From Actinocorallia sp. API 0066 (GTDB taxonomy: Bacteria > Actinomycetota > Actinomycetes > Streptosporangiales > Streptosporangiaceae), in the NCBI RefSeq assembly GCF_020991275.1, contig NZ_JAJLQY010000011.1:186001-250000 (forward strand): a DNA stretch of 64,000 bases, written 5' to 3'. The position numbers were made by a program, and so were the translations under genes. Below, piece after piece: positions 40,976 through 61,180 of the stretch. Within the stretch, counting starts at the first letter, position 1; every line of letters starts with the position of its first letter. The notes below the pieces were generated by a model. It worked only from the letters and a program-made list of their open reading frames with translations. It ran no database searches and was not told the origin of the DNA.

Positions 40976-43900
40976 ATGCGGGAAGGCCGGTGGACGGCGG
41001 TCACCGAGTCCGAGTACGAGCACGAGCGTCGCGGTCTCGAAGCGATCCGGAGGCGTCTGCCGGACGAGGAGCCCTGGCGTGCCTGGTCGAACTTCACGTT
41101 CACGGCGGCGAGTGGTCACGTACGCGAGATAGATCTTCTGGTGACGGCCCCGGCCGGCGTGTTCCTCATCGAGCTGAAGGACTGGCACGGCGCGGTCCAC
41201 GGCGGCGGCAACGACTGGGTGCAGACCACCCCCGGCGGGACGAGGCGGCGCCACGGCAATCCGCTGCATCTGGCGAACCGCAAGGCCAAGGAACTGTCCG
41301 GGCTGATCAACAGCGGTCCCCGAGGGCCCGGGACGCGCGGCAGGATCTGGGTGGGCGAGGCGGTCTGCTTCACCGACGATCGACTCCGGGTGACGCTCCC
41401 GCCCGCGGACATGAACGGTGTGTTCACCGTCAAGCAGCTCGCGGAGATGCTCGCGGAGCCGCCGTCCGACGCCCGGCACCGGATCACGGCCGAGACGTCC
41501 CGCCACGTCCTCTCCGCCCTGAAAAGGTTGGGTATCGCGCCCATTCGCCGTCAGCACGAGGTCGGCGGCTACCTCCTCGACGCCAAGGCCTTCGATTCCG
41601 GGCCCACCTGGGCCGATTACCGGGGCCGCCACTCCCAGTTGCACGACCTGGCTCGGGTGCGCGTCTTCCTCAGCGAGCGGGGCGCCTCCGACGACGAACG
41701 CCGCTCCGTGGAGCAGGCCGCGGCCCGGGAGGCCATGGTGCTCAGCCGGTTCCGGCACCCGGGCGCGGTGCAGCTGAAGACCTACCTGCCCTCGGGGCAT
41801 CCCGCCGGTCCGGCGATCCTCTTCGACTACCACCCCGAGACGCTGCGCCTGGACGACTACCTCGTCGAGCACGGGCAGCGGCTGGAACTGGAGGGCCGCC
41901 TCGCCCTGGTGCGCCAGCTCGCCGAGACGATCCGTTCCGCGCACTCCCGGCGGGTCCACCACCGCACGCTGTCAGCGCACGCGGTACACGTCGTCCCGCG
42001 TGACCGCGGTCCGCGCGGGAGGGACCTCGGCGAGGAGCAGCGCTGGCTGCGACCGTGGCTGAAGATCGCGGACTGGCAGATCGCCGTCGGCCACAGCGCC
42101 ACTGAAGGCAGACCGCTCACCCTGGCGCCCACCCGGCTTTCCGGTTCCCACGTCTCGGAGCGGGCCGATCCCTACCTGGCGCCCGAGCTACGCCTCCCGA
42201 AGGCCGATCCGGTGCGCCTGGACGTCTACGGACTGGGCGTGCTCACCTACCTGCTCGTCACCGGGCAGGCCCCGGGCGCGAGCCAGAGTGAGGTCATGGC
42301 CCACCTGGAAGCCGGGGGAAGCCTGCGTCCCAGCGCGCTGGTGGACGGACTCCACCCGGACATAGACGAACTGGTGGAAGCGGCCACGGCGTACGAACCG
42401 GGCCGACGGCTCTCCACGGTCGATGACTTCCTGGAGATGCTGGAGTACGTCGAGGAGGCGTTCGCCGACGAGGTCGTGACGGACGAGGGCAACGGAAGCG
42501 GAGACGGCGCCGGGGGCGACGGTCCGGCACCGGAGCGTCCGGAGCCGGAGAAGGATCCGCTGGAGGCGGTGGCCGGGGACGTGCTGGCCGGCCGCTGGGA
42601 GGTGACGCGTCGCCTCGGCACGGGCTCGACGTCGCGCGCGTTCCTGGTGCGGGACCTGGAGGGCGAACCGCGCCGGAGCGGGGCCCTGCCGTTGGCGGTA
42701 CTGAAGGTCGCGCTGAGCGAGGCCAAGCACGCGATCCTCGACCTGGAGGCCGCGGTCCTCAGCCGTATCCACCGGGATTCCAGCGTCATCTCACTCTACG
42801 AGCAGGCGCCGCTGACGCTCGGCGGCCGCCGGGTCCTGGTCCTGGAGTACGTGGGCGACAGCCGGGAGCCGAAGGAGCAGGACCCCGGCGCCGGGGGTAC
42901 CGGCAAGGGCCCGCGCCGCCGTGAGGACACCGTCGCGCGGCAGTTGCGGGACAACGGCCGTCTCGGCATGGACCAGCTCGAGGCGTACGGCAAGTACCTG
43001 TTCGGCGCGGTGGAACACCTGGAGGCGGAAGGGATCTGGCACCGGGACCTCAAGCCGGACAACATCGCGATCCGGATCCGTCCCAACGGCACCCGGCAGC
43101 TCGTGCTGATCGACTTCTCGCTCGCCGGATATCCGGCCAGGGACATCGAGGCCGGCACCGAGGGCTATCTCGACCCCTTCGTGGGGGTCATCACGCGCGG
43201 CTCGTACGACGGGCACGCCGAGCGGTACGCGCTGGCGGTGACGTTGCACGAGATGGCGTCGAACGAGCTGCCCCGCTGGGGGGACGGCTCGGTCACCGCC
43301 CGGCAGACCGACCCGGCCAGGTGGCCGTACCCGGAGCTCGCCGCCGACGCTTTTGAGCCCGCCGTCCGGGACGGACTGGTCGCCTTCTTCCGCAAGGCCC
43401 TGGCCCGGGACGTGAAGGACCGCTTCCCGGACCTGAAGCCCATGGAGGCCGCCTGGCGCCGCATCTTCCTGGACGCGCAGCGCACGACGGCGCCGAGTAG
43501 CGGCCACGGTCAGCGGACGGGCAGGGCGAGCCGTGTCCGGGACGTGTCGGGCGCTGCCGGGCCGGACACGGCAGCGGAGCCGCGGATCGGGCGGGAGGAC
43601 GACGCCTCCGCCGAACAGTTCCGCGACGGCCAGGCGGAGCGCGCGGATCGGAACACCCCGCTGTCGGTGGCGGGCCTGACGCTCGCGGCGCAGTCACAGC
43701 TCTTCGCGATGGGGTTGAACACCGTCGGGGACGTCCTGGACTACTCGGCGCGCAAGTTCCTCACCGCGCCGGGCATGGGCTCGCGCACCCGTGAGGAGAT
43801 CCAGGGCCGTCAGAAGGAGTGGAACGCCCGCCTGGGCAGGGCGGCCCCGGCGCCGCTGAGCTCGGAGGGACGCAGGGCCGCCGGGGAGGAGCTCTCCGAG

Positions 43901-45682
43901 CTGGAGCGGGACATCGCCGACTCGGTCGTCTCGGCCGACGCGGACGTGCGCGATCCGCTGGTCCTCGGCCGACTCAGCCTGGACGCGCTCGCCACCCGCC
44001 TGGTACCCAAGCCGTCCAGCGGCAACGCGCGCCCCAACACCACCGAGCGGGAGGCGATCCGCCTGCTGCTCCGCCTGCCGGACGAACGGGGAGCGCTGCC
44101 GGACGGTCTGCCCTGGGTCAGACAGCGGGACGTCGCCGAGGCCCTGGGGCTGACCGCGGGCCATATCTCGCCGATGGTGAAGGAGGCCCGCAAGCGCTGG
44201 TTCAACGACCCCGCCCTCGGCCTGCTGCGCGAACAGGTGGTGGATCTGCTCGCCGAGCGCGGCCGGGTGGCTTCGGCCGTGGAGCTCGCCGACGCGCTGA
44301 TAGCCCGGCGCGGAACCCAGCTCGCGGAGCGGCGCGCCCGCCGCGCGCTCGCACTGTCGATCCTGCGCGCGGTGGTGGAGCGGGAGAGCTACGACAACGA
44401 GTCCCCGCAGCTCTTCCGGTATCTCCACGCGCGCACCCCCAAGGGCGCGGATCCGGTCCTCGGTCTGCTCGCCCTGGACGTCCGGGAAGGGGTGGACGGT
44501 CCGGACACCCCGACGCTGCCCGCCCTCCAGGCGTACGCGCTGAAGCTGGGCGAGCGCGCCGACAGGCTCGCGGCGTTGGAGTCGCTGCCGACCGCGAGCA
44601 CGGTCCTCACCGATCTCGCCGCGGTGCGCCGTCCGCCGGGCAGCCTGAACTGGGACGAGCGGCGTACCGCCGAGATCGCGGCGGCCGCCTCCACCTCGGC
44701 CGCGCTCACTCCCCGGCTGGAGATCTACCCGCGCGATCTGAGCCTGGTGCGCGCGCTGCGCATCACCCAGGCCGGCGTGGTCGCCGTGCTGCCGGGTGTC
44801 ACGGAGGAGGACCACCAGCCTGGCCTGACCGTCGAGGCCCTGCACAAGCGGGTCACCACCCGCTTTCCCGACCTCGGCACCGACCCGCTGGCCCGGCGCG
44901 AGCTGCCGACCGGCGTCGCCCTGGTGCGCGATCTGCGGCAGGCGGGTTTTGAGCTGAAGCTGGCCACGCGCTACGACGGGGTGCTCCGGCTGTTCCCGGA
45001 CCGCCCGCCGGGCGGCGCCACCGCCGGACTGACCTCGGCGAGCTGGAGCGCCTCGGCGTCACGCCGGTCCACCCCGACCCGGTACGACGAGGACACCGCC
45101 GTCGCCGCCGCTGTGAAAGCGGAACAGCGGCTGACGCACTCGACGCGGCAGGACGGCTTCCGGGTGCTGACGGTGCCGCAGCGCCGGGCTGAGGAGGCGG
45201 TGCGGCTGCTGGCGGCGGCGCCGTACGGGGCCCGGCCGCTCTCGCTGACCGGGCTGTTCGTCGCCGAGCTGCGCGGCCTGGTGAGCGAAGCCGACCGGCC
45301 GACCTGGGAGACCGTCCTGAAGGCCGACGCCGCGGAGACCGGCAGCCCGGCGCACCGCCAACTGCGCATCCGCACCGACAAGGCGTGGGGGCGCGTCGAG
45401 CCGAAACTGCGGGAACGGCTTGCCGCCCGGCGTGCGGACGGCCCGCTGCTGCTCACCGACACCGCGATCCTCGCCCGGTACGACGCGTTCGACCTGCTCG
45501 GACGGCTCGCGGAACAGGCAAGGCAGGGCGGTAGCCCGCTCTGGCTGCTCGTCGCACAGTCCGACCCGGCGAGAGCCCCTCGGTTGGCCGGACAGAGCGT
45601 GCCGTATCAGGCAGGATTCGATGAGTGGATCGTCGTACCGGACGCGTGGGTGGCGCGCCGACATCTGGTGCCGGACACCTGA
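40976..45682 (+). CDS. pglW: PglW: NERD domain, pseudokinase, Ser/Thr kinase and HTH-containing BREX type 2 protein
   Basis: The product is 1568 aa from ATG 40976, behind GGAG; a TTG 24 codons upstream is less likely. Parts seen: NERD domain (about 35-100, REIDLLVTAPAGVFLIELKD); a first kinase fold (about 205-500) whose loop reads VHHRTLSAHAVHV and whose DFG reads ADW, so probably inactive; a second kinase (531-838) with LAVLKV and a good catalytic loop WHRDLKPDNIAI (about 688), though DFG is DFS; a helix-hairpin-helix resembling the RNA polymerase alpha C-terminal domain (895-948); and a sigma-4-like HTH (about 1022-1080). PglW is the kinase of the Pgl/BREX-2 phage-defence system. pglX starts 52 nt after its stop. 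Confidence 0.93.
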   Translation: MREGRWTAVTESEYEHERRGLEAIRRRLPDEEPWRAWSNFTFTAASGHVREIDLLVTAPAGVFLIELKDWHGAVHGGGNDWVQTTPGGTRRRHGNPLHLANRKAKELSGLINSGPRGPGTRGRIWVGEAVCFTDDRLRVTLPPADMNGVFTVKQLAEMLAEPPSDARHRITAETSRHVLSALKRLGIAPIRRQHEVGGYLLDAKAFDSGPTWADYRGRHSQLHDLARVRVFLSERGASDDERRSVEQAAAREAMVLSRFRHPGAVQLKTYLPSGHPAGPAILFDYHPETLRLDDYLVEHGQRLELEGRLALVRQLAETIRSAHSRRVHHRTLSAHAVHVVPRDRGPRGRDLGEEQRWLRPWLKIADWQIAVGHSATEGRPLTLAPTRLSGSHVSERADPYLAPELRLPKADPVRLDVYGLGVLTYLLVTGQAPGASQSEVMAHLEAGGSLRPSALVDGLHPDIDELVEAATAYEPGRRLSTVDDFLEMLEYVEEAFADEVVTDEGNGSGDGAGGDGPAPERPEPEKDPLEAVAGDVLAGRWEVTRRLGTGSTSRAFLVRDLEGEPRRSGALPLAVLKVALSEAKHAILDLEAAVLSRIHRDSSVISLYEQAPLTLGGRRVLVLEYVGDSREPKEQDPGAGGTGKGPRRREDTVARQLRDNGRLGMDQLEAYGKYLFGAVEHLEAEGIWHRDLKPDNIAIRIRPNGTRQLVLIDFSLAGYPARDIEAGTEGYLDPFVGVITRGSYDGHAERYALAVTLHEMASNELPRWGDGSVTARQTDPARWPYPELAADAFEPAVRDGLVAFFRKALARDVKDRFPDLKPMEAAWRRIFLDAQRTTAPSSGHGQRTGRASRVRDVSGAAGPDTAAEPRIGREDDASAEQFRDGQAERADRNTPLSVAGLTLAAQSQLFAMGLNTVGDVLDYSARKFLTAPGMGSRTREEIQGRQKEWNARLGRAAPAPLSSEGRRAAGEELSELERDIADSVVSADADVRDPLVLGRLSLDALATRLVPKPSSGNARPNTTEREAIRLLLRLPDERGALPDGLPWVRQRDVAEALGLTAGHISPMVKEARKRWFNDPALGLLREQVVDLLAERGRVASAVELADALIARRGTQLAERRARRALALSILRAVVERESYDNESPQLFRYLHARTPKGADPVLGLLALDVREGVDGPDTPTLPALQAYALKLGERADRLAALESLPTASTVLTDLAAVRRPPGSLNWDERRTAEIAAAASTSAALTPRLEIYPRDLSLVRALRITQAGVVAVLPGVTEEDHQPGLTVEALHKRVTTRFPDLGTDPLARRELPTGVALVRDLRQAGFELKLATRYDGVLRLFPDRPPGGATAGLTSASWSASASRRSTPTRYDEDTAVAAAVKAEQRLTHSTRQDGFRVLTVPQRRAEEAVRLLAAAPYGARPLSLTGLFVAELRGLVSEADRPTWETVLKADAAETGSPAHRQLRIRTDKAWGRVEPKLRERLAARRADGPLLLTDTAILARYDAFDLLGRLAEQARQGGSPLWLLVAQSDPARAPRLAGQSVPYQAGFDEWIVVPDAWVARRHLVPDT

Positions 45683-45734
45683 CCTGATCCATACCCGACC
45701 CGTCTCACCCGTTCACCTCGTACAGGAGCCGTCC

Positions 45735-48700
45735 GTGATCGACCGCAAGAGCCTCCTCTCCGACCTGCAGAAGCAGGTCAGGGCGGCGGAGACCGACCTT
45801 GAGCAGCAGGTCAAGGCAGTCCCCGAGGTCGGGAAGCGGCTGCGGGGCGAGTACGACCGGGCACGGGAGCTGGGACGCACGGCGGCGACCTGGAACGCCT
45901 GGCTCGGCGAGCGGGTCACCCAGGTGGCGGTCGCGTGGGTCCTCGGCACCGTCTTCGTCCGGTTCAGCGAGGACAACGGGCTGATCCCCGAGCCGTACAT
46001 CACCGCCCCCGGCGTCGCCGGGAGGGAGATCGCCCAGGCACGATACGAGGATTACCTGGAGAAGGACCCGGACCCGACCTACCGGGGATGGCTGGAAACC
46101 GCCTTCGCTGAACTGGGGGCGGGACAGGCCGGACGGCTGCTGTTCGACCCCGACCACAATCCGCTCTACCAGATCCCGCTCTCACACGACGGCGCGGGCG
46201 CGCTCCTGGCGTTCTGGCGTGAGCAGCGGATCGAGGAGAACACCGAGGACGGCGAACCGGCACACGTCCTCGTACACGACTTCAGCGATCCGTTGCGCGA
46301 GGACGGCACCGAGGGCTGGGACACCCGGTTCCTCGGCGACCTGTACCAGGACCTCAGCGAGGCGGCCCGCAAGACGTACGCGCTCCTCCAGACGCCGGAG
46401 TTCGTGGAGGAGTTCATCCTCGACCGGACGATGACGCCGGCGATCCGGGAGTTCGGCTTCGCGAAGCTGAAGATGATCGACCCGACCTGCGGGTCCGGCC
46501 ACTTTGTGCTCGGCGCGTTCCGGCGGCTGGTCCGGTTGTGGGCCGAGCGGCGTCCTGAGGTCGGCACCTACGAACGGGTGCGGGCCGCGCTGGAGTCGGT
46601 GCACGGCGTGGACCTCAACCCGTTCGCGGTCGCGGTGGCACGCTTCCGCCTCCTGGTCGCCGCGATGGCCGCGAGCGGCATCCGGACGCTCGCCGAGGCC
46701 CAGGGCTACGCCTGGCCGATCCAGCTCGCGGTCGGCGACTCCCTCATCAAGGCCCGACAGCTCGAACTGCAACTCGGCCTGGGCGAAGAGGCTGTCGGCG
46801 ACCCCCTCGCCGAGTTCTCGTACGCGACGGAGGACGTGCACGAGTACGACCGGATCCTGGAGCCGGGCCGCTACCACGTGGTGGTCGGCAACCCCCCCTA
46901 CATCACGGTCAAGGACAAGAAGCTCAACGAGCTGTACCGGGATCTGTACAAGGCGTGCGCGGGAACATACGCGCTGTCCGTCCCCTTCGCCCAGCGCTTC
47001 TTCGAGCTCGCCAAACGGGGCGGAGCCGGCCCCGAGGGCTACGGCATGGTCGGCCAGATCACCGCCAACTCCTTCATGAAACGCGAGTTCGGCACCAAAC
47101 TCATCGAGGAGTTCTTCGCCCACAGGATCGAACTCACCGAGGTCATCGACACCTCAGGCGCCTACATCCCGGGCCACGGAACCCCCACCGTCATCCTCGT
47201 GGGACGCCCGAGGGAGGGATCCCAACGCCAAGCGACAATCCGTACCGTCCGCAGCGTCCAAGGCGAACCCTCAGCACCGGAGAAGCCGGAGGAGGGGCTC
47301 GTCTGGCGGGCGATCGTAGAGCAGGTCGATCGCCCGGGAAGCTCGGCACAGTGGGTGTCGGTGGACGACCTGGAGCGAAGCCGGTATTTCGGCAAACAGC
47401 CGTGGATCTTGGCCGATGGCGGGCTGGAAATGGTCGAGCAATTGGCCACAATGTCAAAACTTAAGCTATCGGCGATCGCTAGTAGTGTCGGGCGTACAAC
47501 ATCGACTGGTGCTGACGATGTCTATTTTGTCCACGATCGTGCGACTGCGGAGCGTGTAGGTGTTGCCGAATGGACGCGTCCCCTGGTGACGGGCGAGAAC
47601 ATTCGAGATCTTATTATCAGTAATGCAGTGCATGTTGTTGCCCCCTATGCAACTCGTCAGCAGACCGCGCCACTCCAGCTTGCTGGCGGTGCTGTGTATC
47701 GGTTCCTGTGGCCAGCTCGTACGGCTCTCCGTAATCGGGTTATATTCGGAAAATCCATGGAACAAAACGGGAAAAATTGGCAGGAGCATCTGGAGAACTA
47801 CTCCAGCAAGCTGGCCAACCCGTACGGCCTGGGGTTTGCCTTTGTTGCAACACATAATCAGTTTTGCTTCGATCGTGACGGACTCCTCTTCAATCGCACT
47901 GCTCCGGTGATCAAGTTGTGGGAGGGGGCGAGTGAGGAAGAGCATGTGCGGCTGCTCGGGCTGCTCAACAGCTCCACCGCCGGTTTCTGGCTCAAAATGG
48001 TGAGTCATGACAAGGGTAGTCAGGGGGTGAATGAGGGCTACAAGTCGCAGGCTTGGGAACGTTTCTATGAGTTCACCGGAACCAAGCTGCAGGAGTTTCC
48101 TCTTCCCGCTGAGTATCCCACTGCTCTCACTGCTGAGCTTGACGCGCTCGCCCAGCGGCTCTCCGCGACGACCCCGACGGCTCTCGCCGCCGACCTCACG
48201 CCTACGGCTGCGCCATTGCGGGAGGCTGAGGCGCGCTATGCCTCTCTTCGTGCGCGCATGATCGCGCTTCAGGAGGAGTTGGACTGGCAGGTGTATGCGC
48301 TTTACGACCTGCATTCCGAGGATCTGCGGCTGCCGGATTCCGAGGCCGTGCCGGAGCTTGCCCTGGGTGAACGGGCTTTCGAGATCGTGCTCGCGCGCCG
48401 GGTGGAGGCCGGGGAGGCCAGTGGCGAGTGGTTCAAGCGGCACGGGTCCACGCCGGTCACGGAGATTCCCGGGCACTGGCCCGCCGAGTACCGGGAGCTC
48501 GTGCGGAAGCGGATCGAGGTGATCGAGTCGAACCGGGCCGTCGGGATGGTCGAGCGGCCCGAGTACAAGCGGCGCTGGGCCACCGAGGGCTGGGACGCCA
48601 TGCGGCAGAAGGCGTTGCGGTCCTGGCTGCTCGACCGGATCGAGGACCGCTCGTACTGGTTCGACCAGCAGGGCAACCCGACCATCACCACGCTCGCCCG

Positions 48701-49412
48701 GCTCGCCGAGAACCTGTCTACCGACGCGGACTTCACCGCGGTGGCCGAGCTGTACGCCCCCCGGCAGGACCTGGCCAGGACGGTGCGGGAACTGCTCTCC
48801 GAGGAGCACGTCCCGTTCGTGGCGGCCCTGCGCTACAAGCCCGCCGCGCTGAGGAAGCGCGCGGACTGGGAGCACGTCTGGGACCTGCAGCGCCAGGAGG
48901 ACGCCGCGCCGGACGAGCCCGCCAAACGGAGCATCCGCGAGCGGATTCCCCTGCCGCCGAAGTACACCTCCGCCGACTTCCTCAAGGTGAGCTACTGGCG
49001 TGCCCGCGGCAAGCTGGACGTGCCCAAGGAGCGGTTCGTCTCGTACGGCACGGTCAACGCCCAGTCGCCCGAGCTCTACGGGTGGGCCGGCTGGGACCAT
49101 CTGGAGCAGGCACTCGCGCTCGCCTCGCACGTGCAGCAGGCGGGATTCGGCGAGGACGAGATCGTGCCCTATCTGGCGGGTCTGCTGGAGCTCCAGCCCT
49201 GGCTCGACCAGTGGTACGGCGAGTACGACCCGGAGTTCGGCGCCTCCCCGGCCGCCGAGATCCTGGCCTTCCGGCAGCAGAAGCAGGGCGAACTCGGGCT
49301 GACCGACGACGCCCTGCGCGCCTGGCGACCGGCGGCGGTCACGCGCGGGCGGGGCGCCGCGCGGAGGAGCACCGCACCCCCACCGAGTCGGACTGACCAG
49401 GGCGAGGAGTAG
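45735..49412 (+). CDS. pglX: PglX: BREX adenine-specific DNA methyltransferase
   Basis: The product is 1225 aa from GTG 45735, behind AGGAG; the frame runs open upstream into pglW but the family N terminus (IDRKSLLSDLQKQVRAAE) starts here. SAM motif I is DPTCGSGHFVLGAFRR (about 248-263) and the catalytic motif GNPPY is at 385-389, marking N6-adenine methylation. BREX PglX marks host DNA at an asymmetric site while phage DNA stays unmodified and is blocked. Residues about 566-799 correspond to an AT-richer DNA stretch and look like the specificity region. A C7 run (46892-46898) encodes the PP of NPPY. Confidence 0.93.
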   Translation: MIDRKSLLSDLQKQVRAAETDLEQQVKAVPEVGKRLRGEYDRARELGRTAATWNAWLGERVTQVAVAWVLGTVFVRFSEDNGLIPEPYITAPGVAGREIAQARYEDYLEKDPDPTYRGWLETAFAELGAGQAGRLLFDPDHNPLYQIPLSHDGAGALLAFWREQRIEENTEDGEPAHVLVHDFSDPLREDGTEGWDTRFLGDLYQDLSEAARKTYALLQTPEFVEEFILDRTMTPAIREFGFAKLKMIDPTCGSGHFVLGAFRRLVRLWAERRPEVGTYERVRAALESVHGVDLNPFAVAVARFRLLVAAMAASGIRTLAEAQGYAWPIQLAVGDSLIKARQLELQLGLGEEAVGDPLAEFSYATEDVHEYDRILEPGRYHVVVGNPPYITVKDKKLNELYRDLYKACAGTYALSVPFAQRFFELAKRGGAGPEGYGMVGQITANSFMKREFGTKLIEEFFAHRIELTEVIDTSGAYIPGHGTPTVILVGRPREGSQRQATIRTVRSVQGEPSAPEKPEEGLVWRAIVEQVDRPGSSAQWVSVDDLERSRYFGKQPWILADGGLEMVEQLATMSKLKLSAIASSVGRTTSTGADDVYFVHDRATAERVGVAEWTRPLVTGENIRDLIISNAVHVVAPYATRQQTAPLQLAGGAVYRFLWPARTALRNRVIFGKSMEQNGKNWQEHLENYSSKLANPYGLGFAFVATHNQFCFDRDGLLFNRTAPVIKLWEGASEEEHVRLLGLLNSSTAGFWLKMVSHDKGSQGVNEGYKSQAWERFYEFTGTKLQEFPLPAEYPTALTAELDALAQRLSATTPTALAADLTPTAAPLREAEARYASLRARMIALQEELDWQVYALYDLHSEDLRLPDSEAVPELALGERAFEIVLARRVEAGEASGEWFKRHGSTPVTEIPGHWPAEYRELVRKRIEVIESNRAVGMVERPEYKRRWATEGWDAMRQKALRSWLLDRIEDRSYWFDQQGNPTITTLARLAENLSTDADFTAVAELYAPRQDLARTVRELLSEEHVPFVAALRYKPAALRKRADWEHVWDLQRQEDAAPDEPAKRSIRERIPLPPKYTSADFLKVSYWRARGKLDVPKERFVSYGTVNAQSPELYGWAGWDHLEQALALASHVQQAGFGEDEIVPYLAGLLELQPWLDQWYGEYDPEFGASPAAEILAFRQQKQGELGLTDDALRAWRPAAVTRGRGAARRSTAPPPSRTDQGEE
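46892..46898. repeat. C7 homopolymer in the catalytic NPPY codons of pglX
   Basis: Seven consecutive C residues cover the last base of the Asn codon and both Pro codons. It was the longest homopolymer I noticed in the BREX operon; several runs of six exist. Slippage here would inactivate the methyltransferase. Confidence 0.6.
47430..48130 (+). other. AT-richer insert-like segment within pglX (putative target-recognition domain)
   Basis: Within this high-GC gene the segment has clearly lower GC (near 53% in 47,461-47,820 by eye) and uses A/T-ending codons such as att, gtt, aat and ggt. The frame is intact. It begins after the methyltransferase core and encodes the SVGRTTSTGADDVYFVHD to GFWLKMVSHDKGSQG part, including an RLLGLLNSSTAGFWL block like the specificity part of type IIG enzymes. 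From about 48,330 typical high-GC codon use returns fully. Confidence 0.65.
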
Positions 49413-49421
49413 ACACACATC

Positions 49422-52400
49422 ATGGCGTTCATGAGCAGGGGCACCCCGCGCCCCGAGGACCGTCCGCTGCTGCGCGAGCTGATCGACATCCCGGAGTCGG
49501 TGTCCACGTCGGACTTCGTGCTGAAACTGAGCGAGGCGGTCACCCCCGAGGGCGCCGGGACCGCCTTGAAGGAGTACGTGGTCACCGACCGGCTGGTCGG
49601 CAACTTCGGCGAGGCCCTGGACCTGATCAAGTCCGCGCTGGACGGCCACTCCTCGAAGGCCGCCTACCTGCACGGCTCGTTCGGCTCCGGTAAGTCGCAC
49701 TTCATGGCGGTGCTCTACGCCCTGTTGTCGGGCGACCCGGCGGCCAGGGCGCGCGCCGAACTCGATCCGGTGCGTGCCCGGCACCCCTGGCTGGACTCCG
49801 GTGGCCACAGGTTCCTGCTCGTGCCCTACCACATGCTGGGTGCCAAGTCCCTGGAGCAGCGTGTGCTCGGCCGGTACGTGGAGCACGTCCGCAAGCTCCA
49901 TCCGGGGTGCCCGCTCCCGCAGGTCTACCTGACCGAAGGGCTCTTCGAGGACTTCGACCAGCAGCGGAAGCGCCACGGCGACGAGTGGGTGATCGCGCAG
50001 CTCGCGGACGTCGGCGGCGGCCTGGAGGACGAGTGGGGCGAGTCCTTCACCTGGACCACCGAACTGCTCGACACGGCGGTGGCCGCTCCTGAGGAGCACG
50101 AGAACACCAAGCAGCTCGACCTGGAGACCCCCTCCACACCACGTGAGCTGCGGGCGCGTCTCGTCCAGGACCTGACGCAGACCCTGTTCCCGTCGTTCGC
50201 GCGGAGCGCCGCCGAGGACGCCGACGGGTTCGTCTCGCTGGACAGGGGGCTCGGCATCATCGCCGCGCACGCCAAGGCGCTCGGCTACGACGGGCTGGTC
50301 CTGTTCATGGACGAGCTGATCCTGTGGCTTGCCTCGCGGATCCACGACCAGAGGTTCGTCTCGCGCGAGGCCGACAAGATCACGAACTTCGTGGAGGGCG
50401 GTGACGAGCGCCGCGCCATCCCGCTGGTGTCGTTCATCGCCCGTCAGCGTGACCTGCGGGAACTGGTCGGTGAGGAGATGTCCGGGGCGGCCGAGGCCGC
50501 CGTGCAGGACAGCCTGAAGCTCAGTGGCGGACGCTTCGACAAGATCGTCCTGGAGGACCGCAACCTTCCGCAGATCGCCCAGGCCCGCGTGCTCAGGCCG
50601 GTCGACGCCGCCGCCGAAGCGAAGGTGGAGGCCGCGTTCGCCGAGGCCAAGAGGCTTGGACCGGACATCTGGGACACCCTGCTCGGGCACGACAAGTCCA
50701 CCACCGGAGCGGACGAGGACGCGTTCCGCAAGACGTACCCGTTCCCCCCGGCGTTCATGGACACGCTGGTGCACATCTCCTCGGCGCTCCAGCGCTCCCG
50801 TACCGGGCTGAAGCTGATGAGCCAACTGCTCGTCGACCACCGTGACGACTGGCGGCTGGGTCAGCTCGTCCCGCTGGGTGATCTCTACCCCGCGATCGCG
50901 GGCGGCGGTGACCGGGCGTTCAGCGGCGAGACCCATGTGCACTTCGAGGCGGCCGACAAGCTCTACCGCGAGAAGCTGCGCCCGTACCTCCTGCGGGCCA
51001 ACCAGGTCACCGAGGACCAGGTCGAGGCGTACCGGCGAGGCCCGGCGAGCCTGGGCGATCCGCAGCTCGCGGCCCGCTGCCGTGACTTCACCGGGGACAG
51101 CAGGCTGGTGCAGACCCTGCTGCTGTCCGCGCTCGCGCCCAGTGTGCCCGCGCTCGCCGATCTCACCCTGGCCCGCCTGCACGCCCTCAACCACGGCTCC
51201 ATCACCACCCGCATCGCGGGCACCGAGGTCGGACGGCTGGAGCAGAAGGCCAAGGAGTGGGCGGCGACCTTCCCCGAGATCAAGGTCGTCGGCACCGGAC
51301 CGGGTGCGGTGATCCGCCTTGAGCTCACCGGCGTCGACCTGGACGCCGTGCTCGCCAACGCCCAGGTGCACAACAACCAGGCGAGCCGACGTGCCAAGAT
51401 GCGCTCCCTGCTCAAGGAGGCACTCGGCGTCGCTGACGGGCCCGGCGGTTTTGATCCGTACGACGTGCTCGACCTCGTGTGGAAGGGCACCGACCGGCAG
51501 GTCGAGGTGGTGTTCGGCAATGTCGCGGACGCCGACTCGCTCCCCGAGTCCACGCTGCGGCCCAGCCAGGACGGCGCCTGGCGGCTCGTCGTCGACTTCC
51601 CCTACGACGAGGGTGAGTTCGGGCCGATGGACGACGTGCAGCGCCTGCGCTCCCTGCGTGAGAGGCAGGGCGGTGAGTGCCGCACCCTGGCCTGGCTGCC
51701 GACGCACCTGACCGACACCGTGCGCGGTGACTTCGAACGGCTCGTGGTCATCGACAAGGCGCTCGCCGACGAGACCCGCTTCGACTCCGACTTCGCGCGC
51801 AGCCTCAACGCCGACGACAAGGCCCGCGCCAAAGGCATGCTGGGGTCACAGCTCAAAATTCTCCTCGAGCGAGTCAACCAGGCGCTGCGGCAGGCGTACG
51901 GGCTGGCGCAGAAGCAGGAAGGGGTCGTCGACCTCGGCTTCGACACCCATCTCGTCGCCCAGCAGGAGGTGTCCGACCTGCGGCTCCCGCTCGGCGCGCC
52001 GCTGGACGACGCCGCACGCGAGCTGGCCGCCAGGCTGCTCGCCCACCAGTACCCGGGCCATCCCGACCTGGACCCCGAGCGCACAGGGAAGTCCGTCAAG
52101 GCAGCCGAGATCAGGACCGTCTTCGCCTACGTCCGCAAGGCAGCCGAGCACCGTGACGGACAGGTCGAGGTCGAGGCCAAGGACCGCAAGGTCATGGCGC
52201 GGATCGCCGAGGGGCTCGGACTCGGCGTGATGCGGGAGGCGTACTACCGGCAGTCGAGCCAGTGGGCCGACCACTTCAGCAGCCAGGCGCGGCGAAACGG
52301 GGTGACCGAACCGACGCTGGTCAAGCTCTCCGACTGGAGCGACCTTCCCGAGCCGCGCGGGCTTCCCGAGCCGTTGCGCAGACTCCTCGCGGCCGCGTAC

Positions 52401-53321
52401 GCGGAGGTCGACGACCGGGTGTGGGTGCGCGGCGGGGTGCCCGTGGAACCCGCGCCCGCGCCGCACGAGCTCCGACCGGAGTTCGCCCTGCGCGAGCAGC
52501 AGCTCCCCGCCGAGGACGAGTGGGACCAGGCGCGCCGGAGGTTCGAGGCGGTGTTCGGCGGCGTGGCGCCGCAGCTCCGGCGCGGCCGGATCGTCAACCA
52601 GTTCGCGGGGCAGGTCAGGCAGGCGGCGAGCGCCCTCGCCCAGGACGCCGCACGGTTGGTCACGGAGCTGGAGAAGCGCCGCGACTTCCTGCGCCTGGCC
52701 GACGACTCGCCCAGACTCATCCTGGCCCGGCAGGCACAGGAGCTGGTCGGGCAGGTCACCGACGCGGGTCCGGACGCCAGGGGAGTGGTGGAGCGGCTGG
52801 CCCGCTTCGACCTCGGTGACTTCACGGTGGAGCGGTACGGCATGTCGCTGAAGAGCGCGGGAAAGGTCGCCGGGGCGCTCCAGGGCACGAGCTGGGACCA
52901 CCTGGGTCTGGCCTCCACCGTCGGGGTCGAGGGCGAGGCCGTCCTGGCGCGGATGCGGGAGGCGGCGGCCGGTGATCCTGGTCAGTATCCGGACCTGCCG
53001 GGGGTGCTGAGCAGCTGCGGCAGGGAGGTGGTGGCCCTGCTGAGGTCTCGGCAGGCACCGCCGGTCCCCCCTCCCACGCCCGACGTCCGGGTGGTGCCGA
53101 GTTCCGAGAGCGTGGACCTCGGAGGCGGTTCGGCTCACCCGCCGGTGCTGCCCGAGCCTGAGCGGCCGACACCCCCTACCGGGTCGCGCTCCGCCGCCCG
53201 CAGCGGTGGCGGGAGGACCACCGCCGCACGGGCCGCCGCCGAGCTCCAGGCGGAGATCGCGGCGCTCGCGGCCGAGCACCCGGACGCCGTGGTCGAGGTC
53301 GTCTGGAAGGTCATCGACTGA
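49422..53321 (+). CDS. pglY: PglY: large BREX type 2 ATPase
   Basis: The 1299-aa product starts at ATG 49422, 9 nt after the pglX stop, with GAGGAG inside the end of pglX. P-loop HGSFGSGKSH (residues 84-93) and Walker B LVLFMDELILWL (about 288-300) define a STAND/AAA-like ATPase related to BrxC. In BREX it is required for defence and probably powers assembly or DNA scanning. The C terminus (about 1230-1299) is Pro/Ser/Arg-rich before a final helix. Stop and pglZ start overlap as TGATG. Confidence 0.93.
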   Translation: MAFMSRGTPRPEDRPLLRELIDIPESVSTSDFVLKLSEAVTPEGAGTALKEYVVTDRLVGNFGEALDLIKSALDGHSSKAAYLHGSFGSGKSHFMAVLYALLSGDPAARARAELDPVRARHPWLDSGGHRFLLVPYHMLGAKSLEQRVLGRYVEHVRKLHPGCPLPQVYLTEGLFEDFDQQRKRHGDEWVIAQLADVGGGLEDEWGESFTWTTELLDTAVAAPEEHENTKQLDLETPSTPRELRARLVQDLTQTLFPSFARSAAEDADGFVSLDRGLGIIAAHAKALGYDGLVLFMDELILWLASRIHDQRFVSREADKITNFVEGGDERRAIPLVSFIARQRDLRELVGEEMSGAAEAAVQDSLKLSGGRFDKIVLEDRNLPQIAQARVLRPVDAAAEAKVEAAFAEAKRLGPDIWDTLLGHDKSTTGADEDAFRKTYPFPPAFMDTLVHISSALQRSRTGLKLMSQLLVDHRDDWRLGQLVPLGDLYPAIAGGGDRAFSGETHVHFEAADKLYREKLRPYLLRANQVTEDQVEAYRRGPASLGDPQLAARCRDFTGDSRLVQTLLLSALAPSVPALADLTLARLHALNHGSITTRIAGTEVGRLEQKAKEWAATFPEIKVVGTGPGAVIRLELTGVDLDAVLANAQVHNNQASRRAKMRSLLKEALGVADGPGGFDPYDVLDLVWKGTDRQVEVVFGNVADADSLPESTLRPSQDGAWRLVVDFPYDEGEFGPMDDVQRLRSLRERQGGECRTLAWLPTHLTDTVRGDFERLVVIDKALADETRFDSDFARSLNADDKARAKGMLGSQLKILLERVNQALRQAYGLAQKQEGVVDLGFDTHLVAQQEVSDLRLPLGAPLDDAARELAARLLAHQYPGHPDLDPERTGKSVKAAEIRTVFAYVRKAAEHRDGQVEVEAKDRKVMARIAEGLGLGVMREAYYRQSSQWADHFSSQARRNGVTEPTLVKLSDWSDLPEPRGLPEPLRRLLAAAYAEVDDRVWVRGGVPVEPAPAPHELRPEFALREQQLPAEDEWDQARRRFEAVFGGVAPQLRRGRIVNQFAGQVRQAASALAQDAARLVTELEKRRDFLRLADDSPRLILARQAQELVGQVTDAGPDARGVVERLARFDLGDFTVERYGMSLKSAGKVAGALQGTSWDHLGLASTVGVEGEAVLARMREAAAGDPGQYPDLPGVLSSCGREVVALLRSRQAPPVPPPTPDVRVVPSSESVDLGGGSAHPPVLPEPERPTPPTGSRSAARSGGGRTTAARAAAELQAEIAALAAEHPDAVVEVVWKVID

Positions 53322-56170
53322 TGCCCTCCACCGTGGCCCCGGTGACCGCGGGTCCCGCCCGGCTGTCGGCCGCGGCCGTCCGGCAGTACATCGCCTCCCG
53401 CAGCCGTCTCGGTGACGGCGCGGTCCGCGTCCTGCTGCTGCGGGCCGACACCTCCTGGGACGCTCCGGCCGTGCAGCGGACAGCGGGCGGGCTCAACGCG
53501 CGCGTGGCCGTCGCGCCTTCCGTGCTCGCCGTGCACGAGCTGATCCTGGGGCATCTGGACGCGGCCGCGCCGCCCGACCCCAGGGTCCTGGTCGTCCTCA
53601 CCGACTGCGAGGACACCGACCTCGACCCCGGCCTCCTCGCCCGCGTCTACGGTGGCCGTATCCGGTCGGTGGACAACTGGGAGGTCGTCCGGGAGGCGTT
53701 CGACGCGCGCGGGATCGACGGCCGGCTGCGTGCCGAGTCCTGGGCGGCCGAGGCGCTGCTGGACGCGGCCGCGACCCGTGGCTGGCCCGCGCTCGGCAAG
53801 GGACTGCTCTTGCGCGACGAGGCGCTCACCCGTCTGGCGAGGCGCCGACTGCGGCTGAGCCGCCAGGACACCGACGCGCTGGGGGCACCGGCCGCACTCG
53901 ACGACGGCGACCGTGTCGACGCCGTGGCCCTGCTGGGCTGGACCCTCACCCCCGGCGGTCCCGACCTGCTGCGGGAACTGCGCGCCCCGGAACGCACGGG
54001 CCTGTCCGGTTTCCTCGGCGAACCCGAACAGGCGGGCTCCACCGGCCGCGTCATCGCCGCCCTGGTCGAGGCGGAGCACGGGGCGGACGCCGCGGCGTAC
54101 GCGGTCGTCTGCGCCGCCCTGTGGGAGCACGCCGAGCCCGACCACGACCTGTACCGGGCGCGCGGGCGGGCCGAACGGTGGTTGGGCGACCAGCCCCCCG
54201 CCCAAGGAGACGATCTCGACCGCCTCCTCGTCTCCTTCGCCCGCAGCGGCGAGGAGTACGTACGCGGCCTGCTCGACCGGGGCGAGCACCGGCTCTCCGA
54301 TCCGGTGCTGCACCGGGCGGCGCAGCTCGTCGCCAAGTTCGGCGCGCAGCGCGCCGCCGCGGCCAGCCCGCTGCTCGCCGCCGGCCTCGACGCCCGCTTC
54401 ACCGCCGCGGGCCGGTCCCTGGCCGAGGACGACGCACTGAAGATCGCCGGCACCGTCACCGCACTGGCCGAGCACGCCCTGGCCACCGTGGACACCACCC
54501 CGGCCCGCGTCGAACGCGTGCGGATGGCGGCACGGCTGCGACGCTGGCTCGCCTCCCGTCCCGTGCCCGAGATCCCGTCCGTGGCCGAGGGCATCGCCCG
54601 TCAGATCCGCGAACTCGGCTGGGTGGACCGGGCACTGGAGCACCTGGAGGCGGGCGGCGACACGGACAGCGCGCTCGCCGACGCCTACAGCCGCATCGGC
54701 GAACAGGTGCGGGCCACCCGTCGGGCCCTGGACCAGGCGTTCTCCGAGCGGCTCGCGGTGTGGACGGCGGACGGCACCGCGCCCGGCGCCATGCTCACCG
54801 TGGAGGGTCTGCTGGAACGGGTCGTCGCGCCGGTGGTGGCCGCGCCCGGCCAGCGCGTCCTGCTCCTGCTCGTGGACGGGATGAGCGCGGCCATCGCGGC
54901 CGAGCTCGGCGAGGAGCTGCGCGCCCACTGGTCCGAGTTCGACCCGCTGCCGGAACCCGCGGGGGCGCCGACCCGGCGCGCGGTCGCCGCGGCGCTGCCG
55001 ACCCTCACCTCCGTCTCGCGGACCTCGCTGTTCGCCGGTGCCCTGACCAAGGGCGACCAGAACGACGAGAAGCGGCTCTTTCCCCAGCATCCCTGCTGGC
55101 GGGGAGCCCCGGCGGCGGTGTTCCACAAGGACGACCTGCGCGGCCCCGACACGGGCTCGCCGTTCTCCACCGAGCTCGCCGAGGCCCTCGCCGACGAGCG
55201 CACCCACGTCGCCGTCGTCCTCAACACCGTGGACGACCGGCTCGGCAAGGAACAGAAGCTCGGCGACGGCGCGTGGCGCCTCCGGGAGATCGGTGGTCTG
55301 GAGCCCCTTCTGCGGGCCGCTCGGGCGAACGGCATGACCGTCCTGCTCACCTCCGACCACGGGCACGTGATCGAACGGCGGAGCGACCGGACCGACGCGC
55401 CCGCCGCGAGCGTCGCCTCGGCCCGTCACCGGCTGCCCGGTGGGCCCCTCGCCCCGGCCGAGATCGAGCTGTCCGGCCCCCGGGTGGTCTGGCCGCGGCC
55501 CGGCGCGCGGATCGTCGCGCTGCGTGATCGCGACGCCCGCTACACGGCGCTGAAGGCCGGATACCACGGCGGAGCCACCCTCGCCGAGTTCGCCATACCC
55601 CTGCTCGCCCTGCTGCCGTTCGGCGCCGAGCCGCCCGTCGGCTGGCGGGAGCTGGGCGATCCGGCGCCCGCGTGGTGGATCCAGGACGCGGACGTGCCTA
55701 CCCCCGACCGGTCCGGGGCCGCGGACCGCGCCGTGGCGGCCGTCGCGAGGCCGCGCCACAAGCAGCCGAGGAAGGCCCCGGCCGTGGCGGAGCCGACCAT
55801 CGCTCTCTTCGACGAGGAACAGGCGACAACGCCGTCCTCCCAGCGGGACTCCGGCTCCGACGACCCGGCCACCGCCCTGGTCGAGCGCCTGATGGCCACG
55901 GAACTGTACAAGGCGCAACTGGGAATGCTGGCCCGTCGTCCCCAGGGCAAGGCGGTGCCGAGGGCCCTGGCGGCCCTGGTCGAGGCGGGCACCCTGACGA
56001 TGACGGCGCTCGCCGAACGCGCGGGCCAACCGGCCGCCCGTGCCCCCGGCTTCGCCGCGACGCTGGCCCAGCTCCTCAACTACGACGGCGCCCAGATCCT
56101 GGAGATCCTGCCCGACAACCGCACACTGCGCCTGCACCGGACCCCGCTGATCGAACAGTTCGGCCTGTGA
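53321..56170 (+). CDS. pglZ: PglZ: alkaline-phosphatase-fold BREX protein
   Basis: The 949-aa product starts at ATG 53321, sharing one base with the pglY stop, so translation is coupled. The core PglZ domain shows the metal-binding start RVLLLLVDGMSAAIAAELG (about 510-530) and the second metal site LLTSDHGHVIERR (about 676-688), the alkaline-phosphatase-superfamily layout. PglZ is the hallmark gene of all BREX types; in S. coelicolor it offsets PglX toxicity. Residues about 790-850 form a variable linker before a C-terminal helical domain. Confidence 0.94.
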   Translation: MPSTVAPVTAGPARLSAAAVRQYIASRSRLGDGAVRVLLLRADTSWDAPAVQRTAGGLNARVAVAPSVLAVHELILGHLDAAAPPDPRVLVVLTDCEDTDLDPGLLARVYGGRIRSVDNWEVVREAFDARGIDGRLRAESWAAEALLDAAATRGWPALGKGLLLRDEALTRLARRRLRLSRQDTDALGAPAALDDGDRVDAVALLGWTLTPGGPDLLRELRAPERTGLSGFLGEPEQAGSTGRVIAALVEAEHGADAAAYAVVCAALWEHAEPDHDLYRARGRAERWLGDQPPAQGDDLDRLLVSFARSGEEYVRGLLDRGEHRLSDPVLHRAAQLVAKFGAQRAAAASPLLAAGLDARFTAAGRSLAEDDALKIAGTVTALAEHALATVDTTPARVERVRMAARLRRWLASRPVPEIPSVAEGIARQIRELGWVDRALEHLEAGGDTDSALADAYSRIGEQVRATRRALDQAFSERLAVWTADGTAPGAMLTVEGLLERVVAPVVAAPGQRVLLLLVDGMSAAIAAELGEELRAHWSEFDPLPEPAGAPTRRAVAAALPTLTSVSRTSLFAGALTKGDQNDEKRLFPQHPCWRGAPAAVFHKDDLRGPDTGSPFSTELAEALADERTHVAVVLNTVDDRLGKEQKLGDGAWRLREIGGLEPLLRAARANGMTVLLTSDHGHVIERRSDRTDAPAASVASARHRLPGGPLAPAEIELSGPRVVWPRPGARIVALRDRDARYTALKAGYHGGATLAEFAIPLLALLPFGAEPPVGWRELGDPAPAWWIQDADVPTPDRSGAADRAVAAVARPRHKQPRKAPAVAEPTIALFDEEQATTPSSQRDSGSDDPATALVERLMATELYKAQLGMLARRPQGKAVPRALAALVEAGTLTMTALAERAGQPAARAPGFAATLAQLLNYDGAQILEILPDNRTLRLHRTPLIEQFGL

Positions 56171-56243
56171 GGCACGGTACGGCTCCGGCCGCGCGCGAAG
56201 GACACCCGCCACCCGGCCGGCGAGCCGATGGGACACTGTCCGG

Positions 56244-57587
56244 GTGAACGCGTTCGGATCCCCGGCGTCCGGCACCGGCTCCCCGGTCGGTGCCCTGCGA
56301 CGGCGCGCCGTGATCGACGCGCTGCGGCGCGGCGCCGTCCCCGAGAGCGGTCTGGACCTGCTCGCCGTCGGCCTCGGCCGTTTCGAGCGGGCCATCGACG
56401 AGGAACTGGACACGGTCGCCGTCGGCGGGTCGGCGTTCAAGGCGGTGCGCGGCGAGTACGGCTCCGGCAAGACCTTCTTCACCCGCTGGCTCGGTGAGCG
56501 CGCCAAACGGCGCACCTTCGCCGTGGCCGAGGTGCAGGTGTCGGAGACCGAGACCCCTCTGCACAAGCTGGAGACCGTCTACCGACGTCTCACGGAGCGT
56601 CTCACCACCGCGAGCTTTCCGCCCAGCGCGCTGCGACCGGTCACGGACGCCTGGTTCTACGCCCTGGAGGAGGACGCCCTCGCCGACGGTGCGGACGAGG
56701 GGGAACTGTCCCAGGCGGTGGACCGGCTGCTCACCGCCCGGCTGGCCGAGGTCTCCCGGCACGCGCCCGCCTTCGCCACCGCCCTGCGCGGCTACAGGCA
56801 GTCACTCAACGCCGGCGACGAGGCCACCGCCGCCGCGGTGATGTCCTGGCTCGGGGGCCAGCCGCACGTCGCCGCGTCCGCCAAGCGCGGCGCGGGCGTC
56901 CGAGGCGAGCTCGACCACTTCGGCGCCTTCGGCTTCCTGCAGGGCCTGCTCACCGTTCTCCGGGACGCCGGACACGCCGGCCTCGTCCTGGTCCTGGACG
57001 AGGTGGAGACCCTGCAACGGGTTCGCTCCGACGCCCGCGACAAGGCGCTCAACGCGCTGCGGCAGCTCATCGACGAGGTCCACTCCGGCCGTTTCCCCGG
57101 CCTCTACCTGATCATCACCGGCACCCCCGCCTTCTACGACGGGCAGCAGGGCGTGCAGCGGCTCGCGCCCCTCGCCCAGCGGCTGGCCACCGACTTCACC
57201 ACCGATCCCCGCTTCGACAATCCCCGGGCCGTCCAGATCAGGCTCCCCGGATTCACCGAGGAGTCCCTGACCGGCCTCGGCGTCATCATCCGCGATCTCT
57301 ACGCCCAGGGCTCCCAGACGCCCGACCGGATCGAACGGCTCGCCGACGACGCCTACCTCGCCGACCTGGCGCGGGCCGTGGGGGGAGCACTCGGTGGACA
57401 CGTCGGCGTGGCACCGCGCCTGTACCTGAAGAAGCTGATCGGCGACGTCCTGGACCGGATCGACCAGTTCGACGACTTCGACCCGCGCGTCCACTACAGG
57501 CTCACCGTGGACGTCGGCGACCTCACCGCCGTCGAGCGGAACCTCGCCGCGCCCGTCTCAGCCGACGACCTCGATCTCGAGCTCTGA
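56244..57587 (+). CDS. brxD: BrxD: BREX type 2 ATP-binding protein
   Basis: The 447-aa product starts at GTG 56244, 73 nt after pglZ. P-loop GEYGSGKT (70-77) and Walker B GLVLVLDEVETLQR (about 245-258) show an Orc/Cdc6-like ATPase of the DUF2791 type. The middle has an LIITGTPAFYDGQQGVQR sensor-like segment. BrxD pairs with BrxHI in type 2 loci and is probably its loading or regulating partner; that is from family knowledge, not the sequence. Confidence 0.92.
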   Translation: MNAFGSPASGTGSPVGALRRRAVIDALRRGAVPESGLDLLAVGLGRFERAIDEELDTVAVGGSAFKAVRGEYGSGKTFFTRWLGERAKRRTFAVAEVQVSETETPLHKLETVYRRLTERLTTASFPPSALRPVTDAWFYALEEDALADGADEGELSQAVDRLLTARLAEVSRHAPAFATALRGYRQSLNAGDEATAAAVMSWLGGQPHVAASAKRGAGVRGELDHFGAFGFLQGLLTVLRDAGHAGLVLVLDEVETLQRVRSDARDKALNALRQLIDEVHSGRFPGLYLIITGTPAFYDGQQGVQRLAPLAQRLATDFTTDPRFDNPRAVQIRLPGFTEESLTGLGVIIRDLYAQGSQTPDRIERLADDAYLADLARAVGGALGGHVGVAPRLYLKKLIGDVLDRIDQFDDFDPRVHYRLTVDVGDLTAVERNLAAPVSADDLDLEL

Positions 57588-57598
57588 GAGGCGCGCCC

Positions 57599-59749
57599 GT
57601 GCAGGACGAGCCACGCGCCCGGGAACACTTGCCGGTAGAACGCCTCGACCCGGTGCTCCTACACCACATCGTCAACACGCTCGGATGGCACGACCTCCGC
57701 GCGTCGCAGAAGGCGGCGATCGACCCCCTCATGGACGGGGAGGACGCGATCCTGCTCGCCCCGACGGCGGGCGGCAAGACCGAAGCCGCGACGTTCCCTC
57801 TCCTGTCCGCGATGCGCCGGCAAAGCTGGACCGGTACCTCCGTCCTCTACCTGGCGCCGCTCAAAGCCCTCCTGAACAACCTGGTGCACCGGGTCGATGG
57901 TTACGCGCAGTGGCTGGGCCGCCGAGCGGCACTCTGGCACGGCGACACCCCCGAATCCGCACGCCGCCGCATCCGCGCCGAGCCCCCCGACGTGCTGCTC
58001 ACCACGCCCGAGTCCCTCGAAGCGATGCTCATCAGCGTCAAGACCGACCACACCCACGTCCTCGGCCGGGTGCGTGCCGTCGTCGTGGACGAGGTGCACG
58101 CCTTCGCCGGGGACGACCGCGGCTGGCACCTGCTCGCCGTCCTCGAACGGCTGGAGAGGCTGACCGGTCGGCGCATCCAGCGCGTCGGCCTCTCCGCCAC
58201 CGTCGGAAACCCCGACACCCTGCTCACCTGGCTCCAAGGGGCCGCTCACGAGGACCGGCCCGGCCGGGTCGTCGCCCCCGGCGCCGTCCTGCCCGCCGCC
58301 GGGGAGGGTTCGCCGCCGCGTCCGGCCGGTGACGTGGAGCTCGACTACGTCGGATCGCTCGTCAACGCCGCCAAGGTGATCTCCGCACTGCACCTCGGTG
58401 AGAAGCGGCTTGTCTTCTGCGATTCCCGCAAGCAGGTGGAAGAACTCGGCGCGGCCCTGCGCGCCCGCGACACCACCGTCTTCCTCTCGCACGCCTCGCT
58501 CTCCACCGCGGAACGCGCACGCTCCGAGCGGGCGTTCGCTGAGGCCCGCGACTGCGTCATCGTCTCGACCTCCACCCTCGAACTCGGCATCGACGTCGGC
58601 GACCTCGACCGGGTCATCCAGATCGACGCGCCGGGGACGGTCGCCTCCTTCCTGCAACGCGTCGGCCGCACCGGGCGCCGCGCCGGCACCTCCCGCAACT
58701 GCCTCTTCCTCACTACCTGTCCCGACAGCCTCCTCCAGGCCGCCGCTCTGCTCACGCTGTGGACGCGCGGCTGGGTCGAACACGTCACCCCGCCGCCCTC
58801 GCCGCGCCACCTTGTCGCGCAGCAGCTCATCGCCGTCACACTCCAGGAACACCGCGTCGGCGACCGGCTCTGGCACGAGCAGTGGAACGGCCTCGCGCCC
58901 TTCGACCGCTCCGCCGCGCCCCTCCTGTCCCATCTGGTCGAGGAGGGCTTCCTCGACAGCGACGGGGGCATGCTGTTCGTCGGTCCCGAAGCCGAGAAGC
59001 ACTTCGGACGCCGTCACTTCATGGAGCTGACCGCGTCCTTCACCGCGCCCCCCGAGTTCACCGTGCTCGCCGGACGCACCGAGATCGGCACCACCGACCC
59101 CGCCGTCCTCACCGAGGAACGCCCGGGACCGCGCCGCCTGCTCCTGGCCGGACGTAGCTGGCAGGTCACCTTCATCGACTGGGCTCGACGCCGCGCCTTC
59201 GTCGAACCGGTGGAAGACGGTGGTGTCGCCAAATGGCAGGGCAGCGAAGTCCGCGGGCTCTCGTACGCCCTCACCCGCGCCATGCGTGACGTGCTCCTGG
59301 GAACCGACCCGGACGTCCGCCTCACCCGCCGCGCCGCCGCGGCGCTCGCCGAGCTCCGCGCCGACCGCGCGCCCCGACAAGTGCACCCCGCGGGCAGCCT
59401 GCTGGTCCGGGACGCCGACGCCACCCGCTGGTGGACCTGGGCCGGCTACCGTGCCAACGCCACCCTGAGCGCCTCTCTCGGCTCTCTCGCCGACCCCGTG
59501 CAACGCCCCACGGACACGCACGTCCGGCTCCGTCAGGATCTCTCTCCCGAGGATTGGAAGACCGCCCGAGCCGAGCTGTCCGGCTCCCTCACGCTTCCCA
59601 CCGTGGATCCGCGAGCCGTCCGTGGCCTGAAGTTCTCGGCCGCGCTCCCCACCCGCGTCGCCACCGCCACCCTCGCCGAACGCCTCGCGGACTTCGACGG
59701 CGCCCTCGCCGCATCCCGCGAACCCGTCCGCAAGGAATGGAGCACCTGA
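57599..59749 (+). CDS. brxHI: BrxHI: Lhr-like DEAH-box helicase of BREX type 2
   Basis: The 716-aa product starts at GTG 57599, 11 nt after the brxD stop, behind GAGAGG. Superfamily 2 helicase motifs are all visible: APTAGGKT (54-61), DEVHAF (about 164-169), SAT (LSATVGNP), and motif VI RVGRTGRRAG (about 354-363). A C-terminal winged region of Lhr type follows. It should be an ATP-driven DNA translocase or helicase used during phage blocking. It is the last gene of the operon and converges on the HTH/Clp-N gene. Confidence 0.92.
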   Translation: MQDEPRAREHLPVERLDPVLLHHIVNTLGWHDLRASQKAAIDPLMDGEDAILLAPTAGGKTEAATFPLLSAMRRQSWTGTSVLYLAPLKALLNNLVHRVDGYAQWLGRRAALWHGDTPESARRRIRAEPPDVLLTTPESLEAMLISVKTDHTHVLGRVRAVVVDEVHAFAGDDRGWHLLAVLERLERLTGRRIQRVGLSATVGNPDTLLTWLQGAAHEDRPGRVVAPGAVLPAAGEGSPPRPAGDVELDYVGSLVNAAKVISALHLGEKRLVFCDSRKQVEELGAALRARDTTVFLSHASLSTAERARSERAFAEARDCVIVSTSTLELGIDVGDLDRVIQIDAPGTVASFLQRVGRTGRRAGTSRNCLFLTTCPDSLLQAAALLTLWTRGWVEHVTPPPSPRHLVAQQLIAVTLQEHRVGDRLWHEQWNGLAPFDRSAAPLLSHLVEEGFLDSDGGMLFVGPEAEKHFGRRHFMELTASFTAPPEFTVLAGRTEIGTTDPAVLTEERPGPRRLLLAGRSWQVTFIDWARRRAFVEPVEDGGVAKWQGSEVRGLSYALTRAMRDVLLGTDPDVRLTRRAAAALAELRADRAPRQVHPAGSLLVRDADATRWWTWAGYRANATLSASLGSLADPVQRPTDTHVRLRQDLSPEDWKTARAELSGSLTLPTVDPRAVRGLKFSAALPTRVATATLAERLADFDGALAASREPVRKEWST

Positions 59750-60583: not shown

Positions 60584-60589
60584 AATGCA

Positions 60590-61169: not shown

Positions 61170-61180
61170 ATTTTGTATCG

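Follow-up and report, generated by a model that had tools for sequence, protein, structure and literature searches.

The 64,000-nucleotide (nt) stretch of the Actinocorallia sp. API 0066 genome analysed here (hereafter the window; contig NZ_JAJLQY010000011.1, positions 186,001 to 250,000, or C3:186001-250000) almost certainly carries a complete bacteriophage exclusion (BREX) type 2 phage-defence operon that was probably acquired horizontally and has been maintained under purifying selection. Six genes on the + strand, pglW, pglX, pglY, pglZ, brxD and brxHI, occupy positions 40976-59749 (Table 1), with coordinates, order and open frames as given in a first-pass annotation of the same DNA; the intergenic gaps listed there (52, 9, -1, 73 and 11 nt from pglW to brxHI) proved exact, and each of the six translations contains a single, terminal stop. 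The identification as BREX type 2, initially made without database searches, is borne out by profile searches, in which five of the proteins exceeded their NCBIfam cut-offs and BrxHI was recognised by PADLOC. As the scores reach 646-1884 bits for the five NCBIfam proteins and 1059 bits for BrxHI, these family matches are not due to chance. For BrxHI, none of the 25 NCBIfam matches listed (of 31) scored above the cut-off of its model, and PglY had no Pfam match. PglX, PglZ, PglY, a PglW with NERD and kinase domains, and the BrxD-BrxHI dyad, encoded by genes 11 nt apart, are thus all present, as is characteristic of type 2. Additionally, third-position guanine plus cytosine (GC) content is 0.84-0.92 across the six genes, matching real high-GC genes. 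Judged from its sequence, the operon is a complete BREX type 2, or phage growth limitation (Pgl), set in the usual gene order and an ordinary member of its family, and this assignment is supported by curated family models, gene order, catalytic residues and purifying selection.

The first-pass annotation had also described all catalytic motifs as intact, and the named motifs were indeed found (Table 1) and are conserved; the key catalytic residues are kept in nearly every alignable relative, the exceptions being mostly gaps. For the NERD domain of PglW, the aspartate considered is D53. A nuance applies to PglW, in which Thr331 of the first kinase domain occupies the presumed place (assigned by eye) of the HRD aspartate. 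Asp is found in this column in none of the 63 rows with a residue there (66 rows aligned), its place being taken by Ala, Thr, Gly or Ser, which fits the description of the first PglW kinase domain as a pseudokinase (PMC12839542). For the C-terminal half of PglW, a triple winged helix-turn-helix and an inactive STAND domain are described for type 2 in the same source. Searching PglX against the PDB returned two weak matches only, both to other adenine methyltransferases.

Table 1. Features of the BREX type 2 operon and its surroundings (positions in the window unless prefixed; motif numbers are residues)
Feature	Position	Strand	Size, start	Description	Basis	Motifs
pglW	40976-45682	+	1568 aa, ATG	NERD nuclease domain, pseudokinase, Ser/Thr kinase, long C-terminal half	NF033442 1631 bits (cut-off 990); Pfam NERD, Pkinase; PADLOC PglW 1424 bits	HRDLKPDN at 689, DFS at 713
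pglX	45735-49412	+	1225 aa, GTG	N6-adenine DNA methyltransferase	NF033451 1755.6 bits (cut-off 400); Pfam Eco57I (methylase), DUF7008	DPTCGSG at 249, NPPY at 386
pglY	49422-53321	+	1299 aa, ATG	BrxC-type ATPase	NF047891 1884 bits (cut-off 1700); PADLOC BrxC-PglY 1364 bits	GSFGSGKS at 85
pglZ	53321-56170	+	949 aa, ATG	PglZ-domain protein; 1-nt overlap with pglY	NF033446 848 bits (cut-off 200); Pfam PglZ 28.4 bits (cut-off 25)	DGM at 519, TSDHG at 677
brxD	56244-57587	+	447 aa, GTG	AAA+ ATPase	NF033438 646 bits (cut-off 350); Pfam BrxC_BrxD 472 bits	GEYGSGKT at 70
brxHI	57599-59749	+	716 aa, GTG	DEAD/DEAH superfamily 2 (SF2) helicase	PADLOC BrxHI 1059 bits over residues 13-712 of 716; Pfam DEAD, Helicase_C	APTAGGKT at 54, DEVH at 164, SAT at 199, QRVGRTGR at 353
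TerD + vWA (TerF-like) gene	39351-40670	+		Upstream of pglW
Clp_N-domain protein	59849-60583	-		Downstream of brxHI	Sigma-like matches below cut-offs
Short frame	60555-61157	+		Possibly a remnant
tRNA-Arg(ACG) 3' fragment, attachment-site (att)-like	61180-61223	-		Outside the operon	39/44 nt identical to intact tRNA-Arg
Integrase P0014	L080:11150-12886	+			phrog_1, E 5.6e-24; without Pfam match

Relatives were obtained by scanning one genome per species for PglX, which yielded 76 distinct related loci extending at most 10 kilobases (kb) to either side of the pglX match, most of them ending inside or near brxHI. All six proteins were matched by tblastn in 22 of these loci, and at least one was unmatched in the remaining 54, partly because the stretch ends; judged on the genes that were matched, all 76 keep to the gene order and strand of the present operon. 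Best-segment identity is 75-90% for each protein in the nearest operons found (L004, L005, L006, L009 and L067, from Streptomyces and Nocardiopsis), which share the six genes, their order and strand, and a pglX that is followed by pglY after a small gap or none. Their flanks differ, as the regulator P0007, the TerD/vWA gene, the Clp_N gene, P0013 and the integrase are unmatched in these five loci, which extend no more than 10 kb past the matched part of pglX. For 63 loci the spacing of pglX and pglY, stop to start, could be estimated; it is below 500 nt in 27, as here, and 0.9-9 kb in 36, and in the latter group (L007, L008, L010, L011, L016, L025 and 30 more) the intervening sequence may accommodate accessory genes.

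Pairwise ratios of nonsynonymous to synonymous substitution (dN/dS) against six relatives were 0.105-0.284 across the six genes, indicating that all six have been kept under purifying selection. Internal stops were flagged in the PglX matches of 21 of the 76 rows; 20 of these lie within the last 20 residues, where the match overruns the gene end. Two rows only, L053 and L072, fall below 85% in length, and the pglX of L072 is broken. Separately, L053 (Streptomyces philanthi bv. triangulum) contains the sole early pglX stop among the 76 rows, and its pglX, pglZ and brxHI matches are each split over two frames, pointing to decay, perhaps of a symbiont genome.

The distribution of the system bears on its origin. 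PglX exceeded the cut-off in 37 of 150 sampled genomes of the family, and within the genus a BREX-2 PglX is absent from genome G001, while G002 has one that is 47% identical and sits at a different place. Judging by this patchy presence in genus and family, the operon was probably acquired horizontally. PglX was matched by tblastn in 45 plasmid records, six of which span 80% or more of the query, all at below 60% identity. A phage origin of the operon was considered and rejected, since a megablast comparison of the operon with 50,697 phage records, in a mode sensitive to near-identical DNA only, gave zero matches.

The operon had further been placed by the first-pass annotation next to a tRNA-Arg integration site, as expected for a defence island, and this claim stands in part. 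A diverged 44-nt 3' fragment of tRNA-Arg(ACG) does lie 1.4 kb downstream of brxHI; it is identical to the intact tRNA at 39/44 nt (at most 24/44 nt in a reversed-sequence control) and forms a 43-nt direct repeat with it at 91% identity; however, no complete tRNA was detected in the window by ARAGORN or by Rfam at its gathering threshold. The intact tRNA-Arg(ACG) gene lies to the right of the window at C3:260217-260290 (ARAGORN), 13 kb from the fragment, with the integrase P0014 on the tRNA side, and a relative of this integrase (45%) adjoins the same tRNA in G002. The 13-kb stretch looks like an element integrated at tRNA-Arg, of which the fragment is the distal end, although the five mismatches in the fragment exceed what a recent clean integration would leave. 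The operon sits beyond that distal end, outside the fragment-to-tRNA element; the stretch with the integrase is separate from it and extends from the fragment in the opposite direction. A scan of 93 kb, beginning 41 kb left of the operon, revealed no additional copy of the tRNA 3' half (at least 29/44), and the boundaries of the operon are not defined by att repeats.

Among the alternatives, the one that survives best is that the operon is, or once was, cargo of mobile DNA integrated at this tRNA-Arg(ACG). Besides the downstream fragment, G002 offers some encouragement for this idea, as it carries three tRNA-Arg 3'-half copies near the site, consistent with repeated insertion, and homologues of the 17.7-22.5 kb block of the window lie about 3 kb from two of them, which makes the DNA from this block to the fragment, operon included, variable in the present genome. 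Nevertheless, the integrase and the intact tRNA are on the far side of the fragment, the lack of a left-hand copy means that no element enclosing the operon can be delimited, and in G001 one gene of the 17.7-22.5 kb block is on a different contig from the tRNA, so that its place relative to the site is not fixed. Carriage as cargo is thus possible but improbable. The tRNA-Arg gene itself is identical in G000, G001 and G002, and in the latter two the genes at 0-8.7 kb of the window (1-8734) have homologues lying 5' of it; as these genes are about 66 kb from tRNA-Arg in the present genome, the region has been either rearranged or enlarged by inserted DNA. The neighbourhood of the operon varies between genomes, and the part of the defence-island claim that has some same-genus support is a variable region near tRNA-Arg.

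A second alternative is a phase-variable BREX type 2 operon. The codons for NPPY in pglX contain a run of seven cytosines (C7, 46892-46898), and slippage there would inactivate the methyltransferase right at the catalytic motif. Such switching has a precedent in Streptomyces coelicolor, where a G tract in pglX, with 8 G in the wild type, is reported to cause Pgl phase variation (PMC4365076); a C7 switch would use another base. C7 is the sole G/C run of at least seven in the six genes, and no C run of seven or more lies within the matched part of pglX in any of the 76 relatives, four of which have runs of at least seven of other bases in pglX (G8 in L011, G7 in L037, A7 in L006 and T7 in L015). 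When synonymous codons were redrawn at the frequencies used in the operon (300 resamplings), the six genes nonetheless contained a mean of 3.8 G/C runs of at least seven, versus the one observed, and pglX had at least one such run in 52% of cases, while AAC CCC CCC is expected at the NPPY site with a probability of 0.14. The tract, which has a length of seven rather than eight and is unconserved in relatives, is no more than codon usage gives, and its role as a phase switch was accordingly rejected as very unlikely.

Equally hard to credit is a decaying or inactive BREX-2 remnant that is still open by chance, for although a neighbouring gene looks degraded, and among the relatives the L053 set and the L072 pglX are broken, the six genes here are full length, show low dN/dS throughout and retain their catalytic residues. 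The neighbouring gene is the TerD/vWA gene, in which positions 1-40 of the TerD profile are unmatched and the vWA match stops at 143/200 (part from 39426 scanned). Two points do weigh against an operon that is maintained and active: the apparent degradation of this flanking gene suggests that the site is unstable, and purifying selection, being an average over the whole divergence that separates the operon from its relatives, is no proof that it is active in the present strain. The complete BREX type 2 operon is nevertheless probably functional in phage defence.

GC content is 63% in 39001-41000, around the TerD/vWA gene. The regulator P0007 and the integrase P0014 were each matched in one of the 76 related loci (L014, 43%, and L064, 33%, respectively), and the TerD/vWA (P0011), Clp_N (P0012) and P0013 proteins in none, a result that is informative for the upstream side only. 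An extra gene associated with BREX-2 was therefore rejected, the neighbours being nearly unmatched on the side so tested. The short frame downstream resembles, by eye, what we take to be the start of an HtpG/Hsp90 chaperone. To the right of the window, within the 13-kb stretch, L080:4732-9291 (+; C3:250731-255287) encodes a protein of 1519 aa whose N-terminal part contains a P-loop (GEPGAGKS) and whose C-terminal part shows, by eye, a nuclease-like D...EVK motif. This protein had no Pfam, PADLOC or PHROG match at E 0.001 and was matched in 8 of 150 family genomes including its own, in one case at 38% across residues 17-1290 of the query; it is a candidate unclassified defence protein.

Among described systems, Pgl of S. 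coelicolor A3(2), compared by its description in PMC4365076, has PglW, PglX, PglY and PglZ with the same motifs, namely NPPY at 378-381, GSFGSGKS in PglY, and NERD and tandem kinase domains in PglW. In that strain, however, the pgl genes are described as two operons, with a phase-variable G tract in pglX (PMC4365076), whereas the present genes form one contiguous run with no G/C run of 8. BREX type 1 shares the core of PglX, PglZ and a BrxC-type protein (PMC12839542). It differs from type 2 in lacking PglW, BrxD and BrxHI and in having BrxA, BrxB and BrxL, for which the six proteins here gave none among the PADLOC and NCBIfam matches listed, which for three of the proteins number 25 at most, nor did P0011 or P0012 with PADLOC. 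Furthermore, the present PglX scored 48 bits with the type 1 PglX model, as against 1756 for type 2 (NCBIfam).

In S. coelicolor, the DNA methyltransferase PglX is toxic unless PglZ is present, and resistance requires the ATPase activity of PglY and the kinase activity of PglW (PMC4365076). For type 1, PMC12707154 reports an asymmetric methylation motif and a complex that PglX forms with other BREX proteins, and a BREX-1-like mechanism has been argued for type 2 (PMC12839542). By analogy with type 1, PglX of the present operon would generate N6-methyladenine at an asymmetric DNA motif, and PglY, as a BrxC-type ATPase, would act together with PglZ in a complex with PglX. PglW would sense infection and signal by phosphorylation, as proposed for S. 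coelicolor (PMC4365076). As proposed in PMC12839542, BrxD may have a role in loading or activating BrxHI, the helicase, and the main nuclease would likely be PglZ, backed up by the NERD domain of PglW. The family could work in either of two modes, that is, classic Pgl, in which modified progeny would be restricted in the next cycle, or a type-1-like self/non-self distinction by host methylation, and the sequence does not decide between these. According to PMC12839542, a 2026 survey that counts BREX type 2 in 1309 taxa, convincing evidence for the proposed type 2 models is lacking. While nothing in the operon is new in kind, it adds one intact, compact six-gene BREX-2 operon to the family, and one that is usable for testing type 2 phage restriction.

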